A stretch of 64,000 nucleotides of DNA from Phototrophicus methaneseepsis (GTDB taxonomy: Bacteria > Chloroflexota > Anaerolineae > Aggregatilineales > Phototrophicaceae). Below, piece after piece: positions 27,938 to 38,889 of this stretch. Under the pieces are notes generated by a model that saw nothing but the letters and a program-made list of their open reading frames with translations, was not told the DNA's origin and did not search any database. The number at the start of each line of letters is the position of its first letter. Positions within the stretch are counted from its first letter, which is position 1. The DNA is taken from the NCBI RefSeq assembly GCF_015500095.1, contig NZ_CP062983.1, positions 496,001 through 560,000 on the forward strand, written 5' to 3'. A program made the translations under genes and the position numbers.

Positions 27938-28438
27938 CTATCTTCTGTTACTGGGCACAAGCTGCCCCATGTTGAGGATATATTTAATCCAATCGAGGAT
28001 ATTAGGCCGCGCCAGCAGGGCATCCATATCTTGTGGCTCGCGCAGCACAAACGTCTCGACATCGTAAATACCATGCATATCTTCCGGCACACGGTCCGGC
28101 GATGGTAATTGTTCCGCACCGTTGACAAGGATGATGGTGACAGGCCGCCCACTGCCGAGCGCCTGCATCACTTCGTCATGGATAGGCACATCCGCCGTAG
28201 AGAGGCGATACCGCCCAAATTCATCAATGCCCGCCCACTGTGGCCCGACGACAAGCCAGATTTGCCCCACGTGCAGCATCATCGTCTCGATGTGCTGTGC
28301 GAGGGAAAGTTCATCTGGCTTGTTTTTAAGAGGCTGCGTCACCACGCTGTAAGGGCCATTTTTGATGCGCCAGCGATGGGCAATTTCTCTAGCAATCTCG
28401 ACATCACTCTGGCGAAAAGAGAGGTATAGGCGGCTCAT
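27938..28438 (-). CDS. TIR-like domain protein
   Basis: 166 residues forming one alpha-beta domain. LYLSFRQSDVEIAREIAHRW matches the first strand and helix of bacterial TIR domains. The middle, IWLVVGPQWAGIDEFGRYRL then IHDEVMQALGSGRPVTIILVNGAE, follows the TIR pattern in which a Glu of the helix after the conserved strand is catalytic in NAD-consuming members. No membrane segment and no linked effector domain. Could be an NADase, a cyclic-nucleotide-making TIR or an adaptor; no defence partner genes lie immediately beside it. Confidence 0.65.
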   Translation of the reverse strand: MSRLYLSFRQSDVEIAREIAHRWRIKNGPYSVVTQPLKNKPDELSLAQHIETMMLHVGQIWLVVGPQWAGIDEFGRYRLSTADVPIHDEVMQALGSGRPVTIILVNGAEQLPSPDRVPEDMHGIYDVETFVLREPQDMDALLARPNILDWIKYILNMGQLVPSNRR

Positions 28439-30231: not shown

Positions 30232-31470
30232 TTACGCGTCACAGGTCACTTCCGGCGTCGTTGCCAACGAACGGACGCGATCATACTCAGCAGTATAAAG
30301 TGTTGCTAGGTCTTTGTCCTGAATAATAAGCAGGTTCTCATCATTGCTCTCTGCCGCGCTATCACTGAAGTTGAAAGATCCGGTGATCACGGTAGTGCCA
30401 TCAAGGATGATGACTTTATGGTGCATAACCCCATTGTTGCCATCGCGCATCACAGAAAGCCCGGCGCAGGCCAGCATCGTCATCTCGCTGTATTGTGTGC
30501 CGCTGCCTGTCGTCTCAAAGACGCCTTCCACATGCACACCGTTGGCAGCACGGGCCAGCATCGCCTGTCCCAGGTCATCCCGTGTGAAGGAGAACGCCAT
30601 AAAGACAATGCTGCTCTGGGCCTGGTTCACGGCGTTCACCACAAAGGGCATCACGTCATCTTCACTGGCGAAATACACTTGCATCGGCACGCCCTCAACA
30701 GTGAAGCTGCCACCATTACCCGTTGGTGAAGTCGGGCCAAAAGCATGCTGGACGAACATCTCGTTAAATTCCTGCTGATAAGCTTCTACAAGCCGCCGGG
30801 AACGGATTTGCAGCAGGTTGTTGTTATTGCGATACACGCCGTTCATGGTGTAGTTGAGCGATCCCATCCATACGCTGATGCCATCCACAATGATGAACTT
30901 ATTGTGCATGAGGGCAGTACGCTCGTCATTGACGATAGGGATATCTTCAATTTCCAGCTCTAATAACGTGCTGTCGTCGTCTTCGATGCCGTTTTCGTCA
31001 TCCGTCACAATGCGGACCTGTACGCCGCGCTCATGTGCCCTCAGGATGGCCGCCGTAATAACCTCGTTATTCAGTTCAAAGGCGGCAATATCCAATGTGG
31101 CCTGGGCGCTATCAATAGCCTGGGCAACGGGCACATCAATGCCATCAGTCCACAGCGCACGATTACGCTCACCTGTCGGGGCAGTAAAGTAGACCTGCCA
31201 AAAGCCTTTGCCATAGCCAAAGCCCTGCCCCACCGGGATCATAGAGACTGTTTGCGGCCCAGGGGTCACCACAGGGGGTTGGGTCACGACGACTGTCGGA
31301 ATCGTCGGGACGACTTCAATGTCACCATCAATGACGCCAAACAAATCAACGCCCGTAAGTGCGAAGATCAAGACGCCAACGCCAAAGACGAGAGCTGCGG
31401 CGACGCTCGCCAGGCAGCCCTGGATTGGGTTAGGACTCTTCTGAGAAGGGGTGTTGCGGCGGTTCGTCAT
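30232..31470 (-). CDS. Membrane-anchored phospholipase D-like protein
   Basis: About 412 residues from ATG 31470; the frame is open to 31533. An N-terminal transmembrane helix (about residues 20-45) is followed by two PLD half-domains. Both HKD motifs are intact: HNKFIIVDGISVWMGSLNYT and HHKVIILDGTTVITGSFNFS. PLD enzymes hydrolyse phosphodiesters through a phosphohistidine, in lipids or nucleic acids. The arrangement, with each half followed by an Asn/Ser strand, resembles Nuc/PLD nucleases as well as lipases. It overlaps the end of the upstream gene by 41 bp, so both are probably co-transcribed. Confidence 0.88.
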   Translation of the reverse strand: MTNRRNTPSQKSPNPIQGCLASVAAALVFGVGVLIFALTGVDLFGVIDGDIEVVPTIPTVVVTQPPVVTPGPQTVSMIPVGQGFGYGKGFWQVYFTAPTGERNRALWTDGIDVPVAQAIDSAQATLDIAAFELNNEVITAAILRAHERGVQVRIVTDDENGIEDDDSTLLELEIEDIPIVNDERTALMHNKFIIVDGISVWMGSLNYTMNGVYRNNNNLLQIRSRRLVEAYQQEFNEMFVQHAFGPTSPTGNGGSFTVEGVPMQVYFASEDDVMPFVVNAVNQAQSSIVFMAFSFTRDDLGQAMLARAANGVHVEGVFETTGSGTQYSEMTMLACAGLSVMRDGNNGVMHHKVIILDGTTVITGSFNFSDSAAESNDENLLIIQDKDLATLYTAEYDRVRSLATTPEVTCDA

Positions 31471-32335
31471 CCGATGATTGCTCGCTTGGGTAGGTGGTAT
31501 CTGCTGAAACTTGCTTACCGAAGAGGCGCTCAAAGAAGTTACGGCGATCAGTTGGCTCCGCCTCTTCCTGGCCGCTATCTTCCTGTTGGTTATCTTCGCT
31601 TTGGCTTTCGCTGTTCGTTTCTATCTTTTCCTGCGGCGGCCCTTCTAAGAGCGGTGCCTCTGCTTCTGGCTGCTGCGGATCAAGCTCAGATAGCTGCGCC
31701 ATCGCTGAGGCCGCTTCTTCCGGCGCATCTTCGCTCTGGGTTGGTGCTGCCTGCTGCGCATCTATGGATTGCGCCGTATCGACCTTTTCTTGCTGTAACT
31801 TCTGCGGCGCCTTTGGCGCTTTTTGTTGTGTGGCTTCATTGTGCCAACTCAGCTTAGGCGCATTGTCCGAAGGCACCTCGTCTGAAGGCGCTTCTTGAAC
31901 TGGTGCGGCGCTCTGGGCAGCAGCCTGTGAAGTCGCCGGAGTTTTACCCGGCGTGATCATCTCCAGAATGGCATCCAGGTTAGCGCGCATATCGCCCTTA
32001 TCTTCCGGCAGATTGACAGCCGCCTGGGCCTGATTCACTTCCCCAAGGCCTGTATGAGGCAACCACTTCATCACCTTACCAAGCTGCTCAAACTCACGCA
32101 TGCTATCCATGAACTCGCGCTGGCCTACAAAGCGATTGATGTCTTTCATCAACTGGCGCATGTACTTCGACCGTTCTTCGAACGCTTCATCAGATGTATC
32201 CGCCGCAGACTGCCGCAGATAATCCGCGCCCCATTGCAACAAAACCTGGGCTTCGCTGTCGTTCAGGTCGTCGCGTACGGCGGTACTCTCATACAGCCGC
32301 TCAATCTCTTGTTGGAGTTTCTCTTCGCTAGCCAT
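31430..32335 (-). CDS. Hypothetical protein with disordered Gln/Glu/Ala/Pro-rich tail
   Basis: 301 residues. The first ~130 are helical (RLYESTAVRDDLNDSEAQVLLQWG, KYMRQLMKDINRFVG), and the remaining ~170 are low-complexity, acidic and Pro/Gln-rich, as expected for an unstructured tail. AGGGAGC precedes the ATG. No signal peptide or membrane segment. It precedes and overlaps the PLD-like gene, implying a functional link at the membrane, but I recognise no family. Confidence 0.65.
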   Translation of the reverse strand: MASEEKLQQEIERLYESTAVRDDLNDSEAQVLLQWGADYLRQSAADTSDEAFEERSKYMRQLMKDINRFVGQREFMDSMREFEQLGKVMKWLPHTGLGEVNQAQAAVNLPEDKGDMRANLDAILEMITPGKTPATSQAAAQSAAPVQEAPSDEVPSDNAPKLSWHNEATQQKAPKAPQKLQQEKVDTAQSIDAQQAAPTQSEDAPEEAASAMAQLSELDPQQPEAEAPLLEGPPQEKIETNSESQSEDNQQEDSGQEEAEPTDRRNFFERLFGKQVSADTTYPSEQSSDDEPPQHPFSEES

Positions 32336-34698: not shown

Positions 34699-35472
34699 AT
34701 GCAAGTGGTCTGTCCTGAATGCGGCGAACAAGTCCCGGCAGAAAATATCAATATTCAGCAGATGGTCGCCGTCTGCCCTACATGTAATGCCGTTTTCAAG
34801 TTCGACCTATCACAAATCAAAGCCGATCACCGTAAGGTAAAACGCCCACATCAGTTGACGATCCATAATGAAGGGGATTATCTGCATATGGCGTTCTTTA
34901 CTAACTTTCGGCTGGATAAGAGCGAATCTTTCATCCGGTCGATTGCGCTGAGCATCGCCTTTGCCTTTAGCACATTCGCCACAGGTATGACGGCCATGGA
35001 AGACAATTTATCCATGGCGATACCTGCTCTTTTTGCCGTGTTGACGTTGAGCATGGTTTATGCGGTTGCGCTGATCGTTTACAACAAAACGCATATTGAG
35101 ATGGACGACGATGTCATCCGCGTCTCGCGCCGCCCCCTACCAGATCTCAGCCAGGCCCACGAGGTCAGCCTCTTTGGTGTGGTCGCCATCCGCTGTGCAG
35201 AGACGAAAATCTCTAAGAAGAACGACTATGACACGCCGCGTTACCGTGTCTGGGCAGAGATGGCTGATGGCAGCAAAAAGACCATCATCACGGATCTGAC
35301 CGAGGATTATGCGTATTACGTCGCCCGCCTCCTGGACGAACAACTCAACGATGGCCTCACGTCGGTCGATTTATCCCGCCTGGCGGATGAGCAGAATGCC
35401 AATCAATATGTTGAGCACGTTGAACAAAAAAGCGCAAACAGGCAAGATATGAGTGTTCTGCTGCACACCTGA
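34699..35472 (+). CDS. Zinc-ribbon membrane protein with PH-like domain
   Basis: 257 residues. A four-Cys zinc ribbon occupies residues 4-33 (CPECGEQVP, then CPTCNAVF). Two membrane helices follow (about 82-102 and 108-130), and the rest is a soluble domain with strands (THIEMDDDVIRVSRRPLP, EVSLFGVVAIRCAE, YRVWAEMADGSKKTIIT) reminiscent of bacterial PH-like domains. The next (minus-strand) gene encodes another two-helix protein with a PH-like domain, and the two converge on one terminator. Function unknown. Confidence 0.65.
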   Translation: MQVVCPECGEQVPAENINIQQMVAVCPTCNAVFKFDLSQIKADHRKVKRPHQLTIHNEGDYLHMAFFTNFRLDKSESFIRSIALSIAFAFSTFATGMTAMEDNLSMAIPALFAVLTLSMVYAVALIVYNKTHIEMDDDVIRVSRRPLPDLSQAHEVSLFGVVAIRCAETKISKKNDYDTPRYRVWAEMADGSKKTIITDLTEDYAYYVARLLDEQLNDGLTSVDLSRLADEQNANQYVEHVEQKSANRQDMSVLLHT

Positions 35473-35528
35473 TCTTGACGATATTGAGCGCGTTATTGTG
35501 TATTAAAACAGCAATAAGCTGATAAAAA

Positions 35529-35564
35529 GCAAAAACAGCATCCAGACAGTGATGCTGTTTTTGC
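35529..35564. terminator. Strong bidirectional terminator
   Basis: Perfect 14-bp stem (35529-35542 with 35551-35564), eight-base loop, T5 on the plus side and A5 mirrored. It separates the convergent zinc-ribbon and PH-like membrane genes. Confidence 0.9.
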
Positions 35565-35578
35565 ATCTCGCTACATGC

Positions 35579-36295
35579 TCAAGAAGCCAATTCTTCATCG
35601 AGCGTGTCAGCTTTGTCAGATTCATAATCGTTAAACATCATTGCTTCATCGCCACGATGCACACGCTGAATCAGTTCATTCAAAATCAGGGTCGTTTCGC
35701 GCGCCTTTTCCAGGTTCTGCCCTGTGCCAAGGATATAGTTGTACCCCCAGAACAGCCCATCACCTGTTGAGAAGCTAATTTCAACAGTACGCTGCCGCCA
35801 ATAACCAAACCAGAAGATCAGGCCACCAATCACGAAGAAGATAATCGACGTCAATAAAGAACCTGTACTGACCAGTTCACCCAGGTTATTCCGATAAACA
35901 GGCGCAATACCAGGTAACACCATCAAACCAAAGAAGCCAAAGGCCAGCGCAAAAAACAGCGCAAAGCGAGGCCGTTTATATCCCCATGTTGTGGTGATAA
36001 TCTGGCTCATAGGCAAAAACGTCTGTCCCTCATTAAAGATACCAGACGAAGCAATTTTAATATCTCGTACAGAAATCGTGATGTCATAAGTCATCGCTGC
36101 ATTGAGGAACTTCAGCACCCAACCAATAAAGCCAGATTTACGCCCTGTCAGGTGCACAATCTGTGTTGGGTTCTTGCGGTCAATGTCATATTTCGTCAGA
36201 TAGAGGCTGTCGACAATATGATTGCGCTTATCCCTCAAAAAAAACATGTAGAAAATGTAGAGGCCGGGTGCCGCAATAAAAGGTAGGAGAAACAT
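35579..36295 (-). CDS. Membrane protein with PH-like domain, downstream of a TIR gene
   Basis: 238 residues. An N-terminal hydrophobic helix (about 1-20), a beta-rich soluble segment (ITISVRDIKIASSGIFNEGQTFLPMSQIITTTW), then two helices (about 108-128 and 143-165) and a final soluble segment (TVEISFSTGDGLFWGYNYILG) that again looks like PH-domain strands; acidic tail. It lies 42 bp after the membrane-tethered TIR gene on the same strand, so the two probably share a transcript. AAGGATG precedes the ATG. Composition is AT-richer than flanking metabolic genes. Confidence 0.6.
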   Translation of the reverse strand: MFLLPFIAAPGLYIFYMFFLRDKRNHIVDSLYLTKYDIDRKNPTQIVHLTGRKSGFIGWVLKFLNAAMTYDITISVRDIKIASSGIFNEGQTFLPMSQIITTTWGYKRPRFALFFALAFGFFGLMVLPGIAPVYRNNLGELVSTGSLLTSIIFFVIGGLIFWFGYWRQRTVEISFSTGDGLFWGYNYILGTGQNLEKARETTLILNELIQRVHRGDEAMMFNDYESDKADTLDEELAS

Positions 36296-36337
36296 AGTAT
36301 CATCCTTGAGCTATAGTGGATAAATAGGGAAATGGAA

Positions 36338-37111
36338 TTATGAAAAACGATTGACAACGCCACTCAATAAAATTGAAGCAGCGGCAATACCGATCCCGGA
36401 TGAGGTGCTGCCCGTAACAAGCAAAATAAGGCCAAATAAAACGCCGATAGCGCCGATGCCATAGATCAATGGCTTGATAGACTTGAAAACAGGCTGGTTC
36501 ACCTGGCGGAACATGTCGTCCTGTTGTTGGCGAAGCTCATTTTTCTTCTGCTCATCAACGTAAAAGGCCCTTTGTGCCTTGGATGTGTTGTGCGTATGAC
36601 GGTTGATCGTCGTTGTATTGCCATCACCAAAGACATATGTGCCATCGGGGCTGTTCTCGTTATGAATCTGAATCGTTGGCTTTTCGGCTGGGGTAGGCCC
36701 TGGGGCGGGAAGATGACTTTTCTCTAGGTCATTGAGTGTTGCATATAGATAGGTCATGCCCTGCTGATTTTGCACGCCCCCTATGAGGTTGATGCAATGC
36801 AGATGAGATAGCCGAGATAGAATCTCTGTTTCGACAAGGATGAGGGGCACAATATGCTTGTCAAAATCAAGCGCATAAGTCAGTTCACGCTGGCAAAATT
36901 CAGATTGATTAGCCGTGGGGGACATCATATAGAGAACGACGTCAGCCGCCATGATCTGCTGAACAATGCCTTTCCACCAATCCGCACCACCATTACGGTT
37001 GAGTTCTTCATCCCACCAAATATCAACACTGGGGAAAACTTGCCGGAGTCGCGAAATGACATCATCAACCAGCGCTTTATCCGCGCGGCTGTAGCTAATA
37101 AATATCTTCAT
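36338..37111 (-). CDS. TIR domain protein with C-terminal membrane anchor
   Basis: 257 residues. N-terminal TIR domain (about 1-140): KIFISYSRADKALVDDV is the first strand and box, VDIWWDEELN the second, and SEFCQRELTYAL places the catalytic Glu of NAD-hydrolysing TIRs after the Cys. A linker (about 140-190, with DGTYVFGDGNTTTIN strands) leads to two C-terminal helices (about 215-255, GIGAIGVLFGLILLV and GIGIAAASILLS). The design is a membrane-bound NADase or signalling TIR with its catalytic head in the cytoplasm. AAGGGTG precedes the ATG. Confidence 0.8.
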   Translation of the reverse strand: MKIFISYSRADKALVDDVISRLRQVFPSVDIWWDEELNRNGGADWWKGIVQQIMAADVVLYMMSPTANQSEFCQRELTYALDFDKHIVPLILVETEILSRLSHLHCINLIGGVQNQQGMTYLYATLNDLEKSHLPAPGPTPAEKPTIQIHNENSPDGTYVFGDGNTTTINRHTHNTSKAQRAFYVDEQKKNELRQQQDDMFRQVNQPVFKSIKPLIYGIGAIGVLFGLILLVTGSTSSGIGIAAASILLSGVVNRFS

Positions 37112-37279: not shown

Positions 37280-38068
37280 TTACGCCTGGTTTTGAGTGAC
37301 AAAGGCATCGCGCTTATGAATAGCGAGCTGAATCATCGCCTGCACCTGGGGAATACCGATTTCTGGCGTGCCATTGCGGTTCTCGTTCGCGAGCTGGGCC
37401 CATTGGCTGTACGGCTCGTCCAACGTATGCATCGCCCATTGGGCCGCCACGCCTTTAGGGACGACAGCGCCCGTTTCGAACGTATAAAGTACCCGGCACA
37501 TCGTCAAAACGCCGTACGTCTGATAACCAGGGCCACCCTGAACCAGCGGCGTCGGATCTGCCAGCATCAGCGTCCACCACATATCCATCATAGGAACCAT
37601 TGCTTGCCGCAGATCGTCCGCGCTGATCGGGTCGATCAAATCACGAATAGGCGGCCCGGCCAGCCAGATGCCATGCTCCCGCAAGATATAGCGCTGCACG
37701 ACCCAATCCGTATGAAACGTGACGATTTTCAAGGTTGTCTCGTCGCGGTCGATGTGTGGATGGGTCCGCTCGCTGTAACGGCGCAATTCCGCAACTGACA
37801 TATAAGCGCCTTCAAGCTGGTTCGCCCATTTTGATGCCCCTTGCCCGATTGCATGATGCATCTCTCGCAGGGCGGCGAACTGCGTATCGGTGACTTCCTG
37901 GCGCGTTGCCACCAGGAAGTCGATATCGCTGCTATTCGGGTCAAAGGTGCCCGTCGCCAGGGAGCCATACAAGTACATGCCGACGAAATCCGCACCCAGG
38001 ATGGCCTGCACACGCGCCAGCAAATCACCCAGGATAGCGTTCACCTCTGTATAGGGGGTTGGCTGCAT
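37280..38068 (-). CDS. AadA-like nucleotidyltransferase (DUF4111-type)
   Basis: 262 residues from ATG 38068, which overlaps the GAGGTGGTG ribosome region; two GTG codons just upstream are alternatives. N-terminal nucleotidyltransferase head (about 30-60) with the signature GSLATGTFDPNSSDIDFLV, the G-S-x(n)-S-D-I-D motif. The C-terminal helical domain has HTDWVVQRYILREHGIWLAGPP, as in ANT(3'')-type aminoglycoside adenylyltransferases. It lies 11 nt after the methyltransferase gene, forming an operon. It might modify aminoglycosides or an unknown alcohol; no drug-resistance claim can be made without testing. Confidence 0.78.
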   Translation of the reverse strand: MQPTPYTEVNAILGDLLARVQAILGADFVGMYLYGSLATGTFDPNSSDIDFLVATRQEVTDTQFAALREMHHAIGQGASKWANQLEGAYMSVAELRRYSERTHPHIDRDETTLKIVTFHTDWVVQRYILREHGIWLAGPPIRDLIDPISADDLRQAMVPMMDMWWTLMLADPTPLVQGGPGYQTYGVLTMCRVLYTFETGAVVPKGVAAQWAMHTLDEPYSQWAQLANENRNGTPEIGIPQVQAMIQLAIHKRDAFVTQNQA

Positions 38069-38079
38069 CACCACCTCGT

Positions 38080-38889
38080 TTATTCCGGCTTGGTAGCAAT
38101 AATGCTGAACATCAGCGCCATTTTGACCATCTCCTCAGGCAGGTAGAATTTACGCCCTTCGGAACGCATCTGTGGGAAGCGCTGCCACCCATTGATATAG
38201 TCGTACTCTTTGAACTGCGTCAATTGCAAGCCAGCATCCAACAGCGCCGAGATAATATCCGCCATACCCCAGCAAAATTCATAAGCCACATGCGTATTTT
38301 TGAAGGCACCTTCGTAGTCATCGCCGACATAATCGCCAACGCCGCCCGTTTCGATGATTTTGCCGCCCATATAATCGTATTGCAGCGACCAGTCAATTTC
38401 ATACATGCCCATCAACGGATGAAATTCAATGATGACGAAACGGCCACCGGGCTTGAGCACTCTGGCGATGCCTGCTGCCCAGGCCTTAATATCCGCAATC
38501 CACACGAGCGTTCCATAAGACGTGTAAACCACATCGAAGGCGGCTTCATTTTGTTGGAACCAGTCGAAAATATCGCTGCGGACGAATGTGGCCGGGGTGT
38601 TGGTGGCCGCCGCCAGCTTACGCGCGGATTCAATCGCATAGTCGCTAATGTCGATACCCGTCACATCGCCACCCAGGTATTTAGCAATGCTGACCGTATC
38701 CTGGCCGTCGTTGCATTGTAAATGCGCGACTTTCTTCCCGGTCAGGTCGCCCAACAGCGCCATATCATCCTCATGAAGATTGTTATAGCCCGCTTGATAG
38801 CGCTCAATCAGGTCTGGCTTATGGGAATGGTGCTGCTGAGTCGCCGTATTCCAGGATAGACGGTTACTCTCATGATAATCATTTGGCAT
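38080..38889 (-). CDS. Class I SAM-dependent methyltransferase
   Basis: 269 residues. Motif I is the variant VAHLQCNDGQDTVSIA, followed by GIDISDYAIESARKLA (acidic loop), RSDIFDWFQ and VVYTSYGTLVWI; the end of the core includes ARVLKPGGRFVIIEFHP. This is the common small-molecule methyltransferase look, not an rRNA adenine methylase (no NPPY). First gene of an operon with the AadA-like nucleotidyltransferase. AAGGAAAG precedes the ATG. Substrate unknown. Confidence 0.85.
   Translation of the reverse strand: MPNDYHESNRLSWNTATQQHHSHKPDLIERYQAGYNNLHEDDMALLGDLTGKKVAHLQCNDGQDTVSIAKYLGGDVTGIDISDYAIESARKLAAATNTPATFVRSDIFDWFQQNEAAFDVVYTSYGTLVWIADIKAWAAGIARVLKPGGRFVIIEFHPLMGMYEIDWSLQYDYMGGKIIETGGVGDYVGDDYEGAFKNTHVAYEFCWGMADIISALLDAGLQLTQFKEYDYINGWQRFPQMRSEGRKFYLPEEMVKMALMFSIIATKPE

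Follow-up and report, generated by a model that had tools for sequence, protein, structure and literature searches.

Gene layout at the locus

The window analysed here is a stretch of 64 kb from the genome of Phototrophicus methaneseepsis (G000; 5.63 Mb on a single contig). On its minus strand, it codes for a membrane-anchored TIR protein, followed by a membrane protein with a predicted pleckstrin homology (PH)-like fold, which is called the PH-TM protein below (TM: transmembrane). The two genes are 42 bp apart and are presumably co-transcribed as one unit. A third gene, coding for a zinc-ribbon protein, converges on the pair. In a few distant relatives, PH-TM genes are preceded by other types of effector genes, which suggests a small, so far undescribed system of exchangeable effectors and not a pairing by chance. 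The features are as follows (positions in the window; aa: amino acids; ORF: open reading frame).

36338-37111, minus strand: effector gene for the membrane-anchored TIR protein, 257 aa (ORF; Pfam TIR_2, E 2.3e-18)
36776-37111, minus strand: TIR domain, aa 1-112 (Pfam TIR_2 matched aa 3-112)
36884-36886, minus strand: codon of Glu76, the conserved TIR glutamate (invariant also in an alignment of 27 rows)
36566-36676, minus strand: Asn/Gly-rich, beta-prone segment, aa 146-182, between linker and coiled coil (read from the sequence)
36416-36466, minus strand: anchor helix 1, aa 216-232 (mean hydropathy 2.55 over 17 aa)
36353-36403, minus strand: anchor helix 2, weaker, aa 237-253 (hydropathy 1.79 over 17 aa, 1.53 over 19 aa)
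35579-36295, minus strand: gene for the PH-TM protein, 238 aa, the constant component, of PHa type by its N-terminal helix (ORF, profile, model, fold comparison)
36236-36292, minus strand: N-terminal hydrophobic helix of the PH-TM protein, aa 2-20 (hydropathy; helix 3-19 in the model, at low pLDDT)
35795-35968, minus strand: TM hairpin within the predicted PH-like domain, helices aa 110-137 and 144-167 (model and hydropathy)
35529-35564, minus strand: terminator-like hairpin of 14 pairs, 14 bp past the stop codon of the PH-TM gene (terminator scan)
34699-35472, plus strand: gene for a protein with zinc ribbon, TM and PH-like parts, converging and judged to lie outside the unit (hairpin between; 12 other loci)

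The original prediction, made from the letters of this stretch, had described the three ORFs as one AT-rich neighbourhood. This observation is partly confirmed. All three ORFs are present with the coordinates given, and the zinc-ribbon gene does run towards the minus-strand pair. The GC content of the three-gene region is 0.472, compared to a mean of 0.538 (1.2% of equal-sized segments are this low). The low value is a property of the TIR gene (0.475) and the PH-TM gene (0.452; about 1% of equal-sized segments have a GC content as low as that of the pair); the zinc-ribbon gene is unremarkable in this respect (0.506; 25% of equal-sized segments are as low). The three genes look more like two units that face each other, with the terminator-like hairpin between them. 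Four terminator-like sites were observed in 2 kb, versus a mean of 1.5 in shuffled sequences, and the stems of the other three have only 5 or 6 pairs.

The TIR protein

The TIR protein belongs to TIR_2 (PF13676; 67.2 bits versus a gathering cut-off of 28), and no other Pfam domain is above its cut-off. The TIR domain is followed by a Pro-rich linker, the Asn/Gly-rich segment, a coiled-coil-like stretch and two C-terminal hydrophobic helices. The two-helix anchor claimed in the original prediction is plausible, its first helix being strong and its second weak: when a 19-aa hydropathy window with a threshold of 1.6 is applied, only the first helix passes. Membrane anchoring is not rare; many TIR proteins from these genomes have one TM helix.

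Forty TIR domains were aligned (the one from the window, 19 others from the same genome, 19 from relatives and one from genome G022, which represents another genus); they are the best-scoring matches, near-copies included, and not a random sample. Glu76 and D34 are present in all 40, F4 and Y7 in 39, W32 in 38 and S6 in 37. A TIR with a glutamate of the catalytic type had been predicted, together with the statement that its absence from most homologues would speak against the idea; the residue is conserved throughout. A profile built from 27 TIRs finds solved TIR structures, the best being Cat1, a CRISPR-associated TIR (E 2e-16), which has a Glu aligned at the conserved position. All five printed profile alignments, including that of TLR6, show a Glu in this column. 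To our knowledge, TLR6 is not an NADase. Compared to Cat1 and the bacterial TIR NADases, the window protein differs in having a linker, a coiled coil and a TM anchor after the TIR domain; the comparison covered Cat1 without its sensor part. In characterised bacterial TIRs, the conserved Glu is catalytic (PMC10022894). Judged by its sequence, the TIR of the window would cleave NAD+.

The segment of aa 146-182 has no second match in the own genome at E <= 10, and the C-terminal 128 aa of the protein have no match in 97 other genomes of the same family. One idea is that the Asn/Gly-rich segment, placed between TIR and anchor, has an amyloid or RHIM-like role. Another TIR protein (L092:1501-2043) has a Gly/Asn/Val-rich segment before its TM helix, similar to that of the window TIR. 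Such a segment is perhaps an assembly motif.

TIR domains are abundant in these organisms. The own genome has 20 TIR loci at E <= 1e-3 (L001-L020) with many architectures, among them, by eye, fusions to FGE-sulfatase-, FHA-, WD-repeat-, AP-ATPase- and HEAT-like parts. TIR matches were found in 57 of the 61 genomes searched (own included). We know of hardly any experiments on TIR genes from Chloroflexota. At two loci from two genomes (L101 and L105), a second gene, TIR-like by eye, comes after a TIR gene on the same strand.

The PH-TM protein and its family

The PH-TM protein has nothing above the curated cut-offs in Pfam or NCBIfam, no PADLOC match and no meaningful sequence match in the PDB. 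By hydropathy, it has three hydrophobic helices, as the original prediction had it. An AlphaFold2 model was computed from a six-row alignment (pLDDT 71, pTM 0.60). It consists of six strands, the TM hairpin (aa 110-167), additional strands and a helix at the C-terminus. Foldseek did not return any match at E <= 0.001 for this model (best E 0.11). In a second structural comparison, most of the 50 rows are from the PH superfamily (PH/PTB), as judged by title or known chain; the VIA-align rows omit some PH families, so that absence there excludes nothing. The best match is a PH domain of the DUF1696 type (3dcx_C; Z 9.2 over 98 residues, 3.6 Å), whose PH-like sandwich the model resembles. This sandwich is also found in EROS/CYBC1, which has been called an orthologue of Ycf4 (8kei_D; Z 8.3 over 120 residues of the model). 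We take 8kei_D to be EROS from its entry title and fold. Models that lack clear matches often reach a best Z of 7-8; a PH-like fold split by a TM hairpin is therefore likely rather than proven. As to the PH-like strands of the original prediction, the model has strands and PH rows dominate the second comparison, but Foldseek gave no significant match.

When the window protein alone was used as a query, it had matches in 3 of 61 genomes (own included). Profile searches resulted in matches in 5 of 98 genomes from the family and 7 of 154 from the order. Across the phylum, only the own genome matched among 400 drawn, and a draw from the class, searched with a four-row profile, gave matches in 3 of 396 genomes. 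One of the latter (G241) was rejected as a family member since its 8 TM helices indicate a transporter. The genome sets overlap, and in some genomes not all first-look candidates of the class and phylum searches received a score, so that absence there is no proof. Searches for the PH-TM system in plasmids, phages and viral contigs gave no result. No paper on the TIR/PH-TM pairing was found in a literature search that left most subscription journals outside.

A profile was built from nine other family members, leaving out the window protein, which then scored at E 2.5e-21. Among 1,814 other ORFs and reversed ORFs, the best match from outside the family is a zinc-ribbon protein of a relative (E 5e-4); three high matches are extra copies of known PH-TM members. 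By this profile comparison, the window protein is a divergent but true family member. In a tree, the three PHb proteins (see below) form a supported group with a solo PH-TM protein from G006 (96/98). One solo PH-TM protein (L059:8335-10026) has a long acidic stretch and a TPR-like C-terminal part (E 0.004, under the cut-off). The PHb protein from G022 has a tail similar to this acidic/TPR-like tail.

Exchange of the upstream gene

In 4 of the 7 genomes with PH-TM genes, an effector-type gene is located directly upstream on the same strand (3 of 6 when the window, which was chosen for this feature, is excluded). The effectors are two unlike TIR proteins (one of them from the window), a DUF4062 protein and a trypsin-like protease. 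In G022, a TIR protein with a C-terminal hydrophobic hairpin is encoded 4 bp before two PH-TM genes; it is 22% identical to the window TIR. In G833, the gene 16 bp before two PH-TM genes is of the DUF4062 type (E 8.7e-5, slightly below the gathering score; PADLOC candidate PDC-S60, E 1.2e-15). In G853, a gene for a trypsin-like protease precedes two PH-TM genes by 14 bp (Pfam Trypsin_2, E 3.3e-11; the motifs TCAHV, DIAL and GFSGAP were seen by eye). These three cassettes each contain two PH-TM genes (PHa and PHb); in the window, PHa is the only one present. Since the effector class was drawn up with the loci already in view, any chance estimate is no test, and the comparison involves few genomes, a divergent window member and one modest model.

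The TIR protein from G022 and the DUF4062 protein from G833 differ in their N-terminal domains but have homologous C-terminal parts (BLASTP of the two, E 7e-7; none of 300 block shuffles reaches the score). Therefore, the N-terminal domain has been exchanged on a kept anchor.

The original prediction had named lack of conservation of the pair as a possible failure. The pairing recurs, with an unlike TIR and in another genus. Of the proposed membrane-linked TIR module with a PH-like partner, the recurrent pairing and the retained Glu stand, and the membership of the zinc-ribbon gene does not.

A constant gene beside different effector domains is an organisation known from conflict systems. EACC1 is a constant membrane component whose gene adjoins one that codes for swappable effector domains (PMC7159879). 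For EACC2/TRADD-N, a constant component beside exchangeable effectors is likewise described, TIR and caspase being among the effectors (PMC8195603). The PH-TM cassettes share with these the constant component next to a swappable effector gene. They differ from EACC1, which has one TM helix and a caspase in the partner gene, by a constant part that is a predicted split PH domain with a TM hairpin. The TIR/PH-TM pair does not belong to EACC1: a caspase match (Pfam) is lacking in both the TIR and the PH-TM protein, and the latter has three hydrophobic helices. The DUF4062 and trypsin-like partners found elsewhere point to a conflict-type system.

The converging zinc-ribbon gene

The original prediction had included the zinc-ribbon gene as a third member of the module. 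Relatives of its product were found in 10 of the 61 genomes, own included (L025-L036). Twelve other loci were read with about 1.5 kb on each side (11 in relatives and one paralogue from the own genome; one locus is cut by a contig end). They contain neither a TIR gene nor a gene of the PH-TM family, and their neighbours vary. Because of these 12 loci and the intervening hairpin, the gene was set outside the unit; its product also represents a separate family. One locus speaks against this rejection. In G004, the zinc-ribbon relative adjoins a bPH_2 membrane protein (E 1e-10), and a TIR gene is found about 2.7 kb from the zinc-ribbon relative, with other genes between (L131:1494-7640). The start of the bPH_2 protein looks like a cyclic-nucleotide-binding region. 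The locus echoes the TIR/PH/zinc-ribbon neighbourhood of the window with different parts. We count the proximity of TIR and zinc-ribbon genes as a coincidence in TIR-rich genomes, though it may be more than that.

The zinc ribbon itself is under the cut-off in Pfam but above it in NCBIfam (MJ0042_CXXC, 27.5 versus 20.9 bits). The third protein had also been considered related-looking. This is valid for the predicted fold; in sequence, the similarity is at most marginal. Besides the relative mentioned above, two more zinc-ribbon proteins are matched by the PH-TM profile, at E 0.47 and 0.9, and kinship of the two families by sequence was rejected as an established fact (hhalign probability 1%). 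The model of the zinc-ribbon protein (pLDDT 80) is closest to 8kei_D (Z 10.1, 150 of 164 residues, 5.0 Å), nearly two Z units above the next row. The predicted fold is strikingly EROS-like, with a PH-like domain whose TM hairpin is inserted behind strands 1 and 2 of the sandwich; in the PH-TM model, the hairpin comes after the sixth strand. Based on the model, the protein is possibly a bacterial EROS/Ycf4-type protein with a zinc ribbon.

Flanking genes

PADLOC did not recognise a complete defence system at the locus or in the flanking genes scanned. Three flanking genes, all on the minus strand, matched individual models: a PLD-like protein (30232-31533) the DrmC models (E 6.9e-25), a methyltransferase (38080-38889) mad2 (E 1.4e-14), and an AadA-type nucleotidyltransferase adjoining the unit (37280-38074) PDC-S09 (E 7.2e-7). 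These are probably matches to broad families (PLD, methyltransferase, nucleotidyltransferase) rather than to defence genes.

Relatives of the nucleotidyltransferase were found in 7 of 10 genomes searched. Six of their 11 loci were read; none has a TIR or PH-TM gene beside it, and the neighbours varied. The exception is G458, where the nucleotidyltransferase gene is preceded, on its own strand, by what by eye is a gene for a homocysteine S-methyltransferase; a similar gene is located at the far side of the unit in the window. A recent insertion of the pair was considered. The strands of the nucleotidyltransferase genes differ from that in the window, so that no empty site could be defined.

A 166-aa protein (27938-28438, minus strand) has no Pfam match at E 0.01 and resembles the TIR of the G022 type across the greater part of its sequence (26% identity, pairwise E 6e-4), with a Glu kept at the matching place. 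Such similarity would be consistent with a divergent stand-alone TIR.

Proposed function and alternative explanations

We read the TIR/PH-TM unit as a reduced version of a small membrane cassette of Anaerolineae that swaps its effectors, with the PH-TM protein as its constant part and the upstream effector as its exchangeable part; we consider the chances of this reading to be even. More tentatively, and with slightly less than an even chance, the cassettes would represent an undescribed class of prokaryotic membrane conflict systems. One or two split-PH TM proteins would act as constant sensor or scaffold, and the upstream effector (TIR, DUF4062 or trypsin-like) would be exchangeable, residing in at least two cases on a homologous anchor made up of beta-segment, coiled coil and two helices.

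Because of the EACC1-type organisation, in which effectors are swapped beside a constant membrane component, we assign the sensing or scaffolding role to the PH-TM protein and the acting role to the TIR protein. The PH-TM protein would reside in the inner membrane, its PH-like domain facing the cytosol. It may form a complex with the effector, keeping it inactive at the membrane via the effector's coiled coil and anchor. The trigger would be membrane-borne, most plausibly phage infection or envelope damage. Upon triggering, TIR domains would cluster and cleave NAD+, resulting in dormancy or death of the cell.

Several points weigh against this proposal. An effector is missing beside the PH-TM gene in 3 of 7 genomes (G006, G439 and G458), and the trypsin-like effector from G853 lacks a clear TM helix. 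Homology of the C-terminal part of the window TIR protein to those of the other effectors was not detected: the score is reached by 79 of 300 shuffles in the comparison with the G022 TIR, by 123 of 300 with the DUF4062 protein and by 56 of 300 with the protease. The layout that it shares with other effectors may thus be convergent. The PH-TM protein encoded here is highly divergent, with an end branch of 2.55, and its position in the tree is uncertain. Glu76 alone does not prove activity because TLR6 carries a Glu in the same column. Finally, the flanking PADLOC matches are only to broad models, and no defence island was recognised.

The adjacency of a TIR gene and a membrane-protein gene resembles the TM-macro ThsA layout of Thoeris (PMC11204291). 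In an arrangement of this kind, the TIR would make an ADP-ribose-type nucleotide and the PH-TM protein would be the killer, binding it with the cytosolic domain while the TM hairpins open or cluster. No macro, SIR2 or SLOG domain (Pfam) was found in the PH-TM protein, its relatives or the flanking proteins scanned. By curated score, the window TIR is not of the ThsB type, with 16.6 versus 21.2 for Pfam ThsB_TIR and 16.5 versus 220 for NCBIfam ThcB4; the PADLOC ThsB models match it at E 1.4e-5 at best, without a cut-off. Also unlike Thoeris, the TIR is itself membrane-anchored, which does not fit the maker of a diffusible signal, and other PH-TM family members have a DUF4062 protein or a trypsin-like protease encoded in front of them, an arrangement that would call for another signal. 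We know of no PH fold that serves as a nucleotide receptor, and we regard this explanation as improbable. A chance neighbourhood has a similarly small probability. The other cassettes would then be real and the window pair a remnant or accident, its TIR gene being one of many; the 20 TIR loci of the genome, the lack of PHb, the long branch of the PH-TM protein and the unmatched C-terminus of the TIR protein fit such a view. It is opposed by gene order, strand and close spacing, which are the same as in the three other cassettes, and by the E-value of the PH-TM protein to its family. If about 1% of genes were of effector type (a guess guided by the TIR loci of this genome), three out of six independent loci by chance would be very unlikely, a figure that is not a test since the class was drawn post hoc.

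A role outside defence is rather unlikely but deserves more weight. The PH-TM protein could be a chaperone or scaffold of membrane-bound enzymes in membrane quality control or developmental signalling, with TIR and protease acting in stress or programmed differentiation. EROS, which has a PH-like domain and TM helices, is a membrane chaperone (PMC13296129), and it is among the structural matches of the PH-TM model and the closest one of the zinc-ribbon model. Solo PH-TM genes occur, which is in line with such a function, as is the lack of a recognised defence island. On the other hand, published conflict systems include TIR and trypsin domains among their swappable effectors (PMC8195603, PMC7159879), and the patchy distribution of the PH-TM family over the order is unlike that of a housekeeping function.

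If the effector-swapping cassette is real, a PH-like domain interrupted by a membrane hairpin would join the swap-in effector logic as a new constant component, and a bacterial example would be at hand of PH-like membrane proteins that control TIR enzymes. The cassettes would provide a small and concrete gene set for membrane-triggered NAD+ depletion. For the TIR-rich Chloroflexota, they would point to a membrane-proximal restraint of TIR enzymes.

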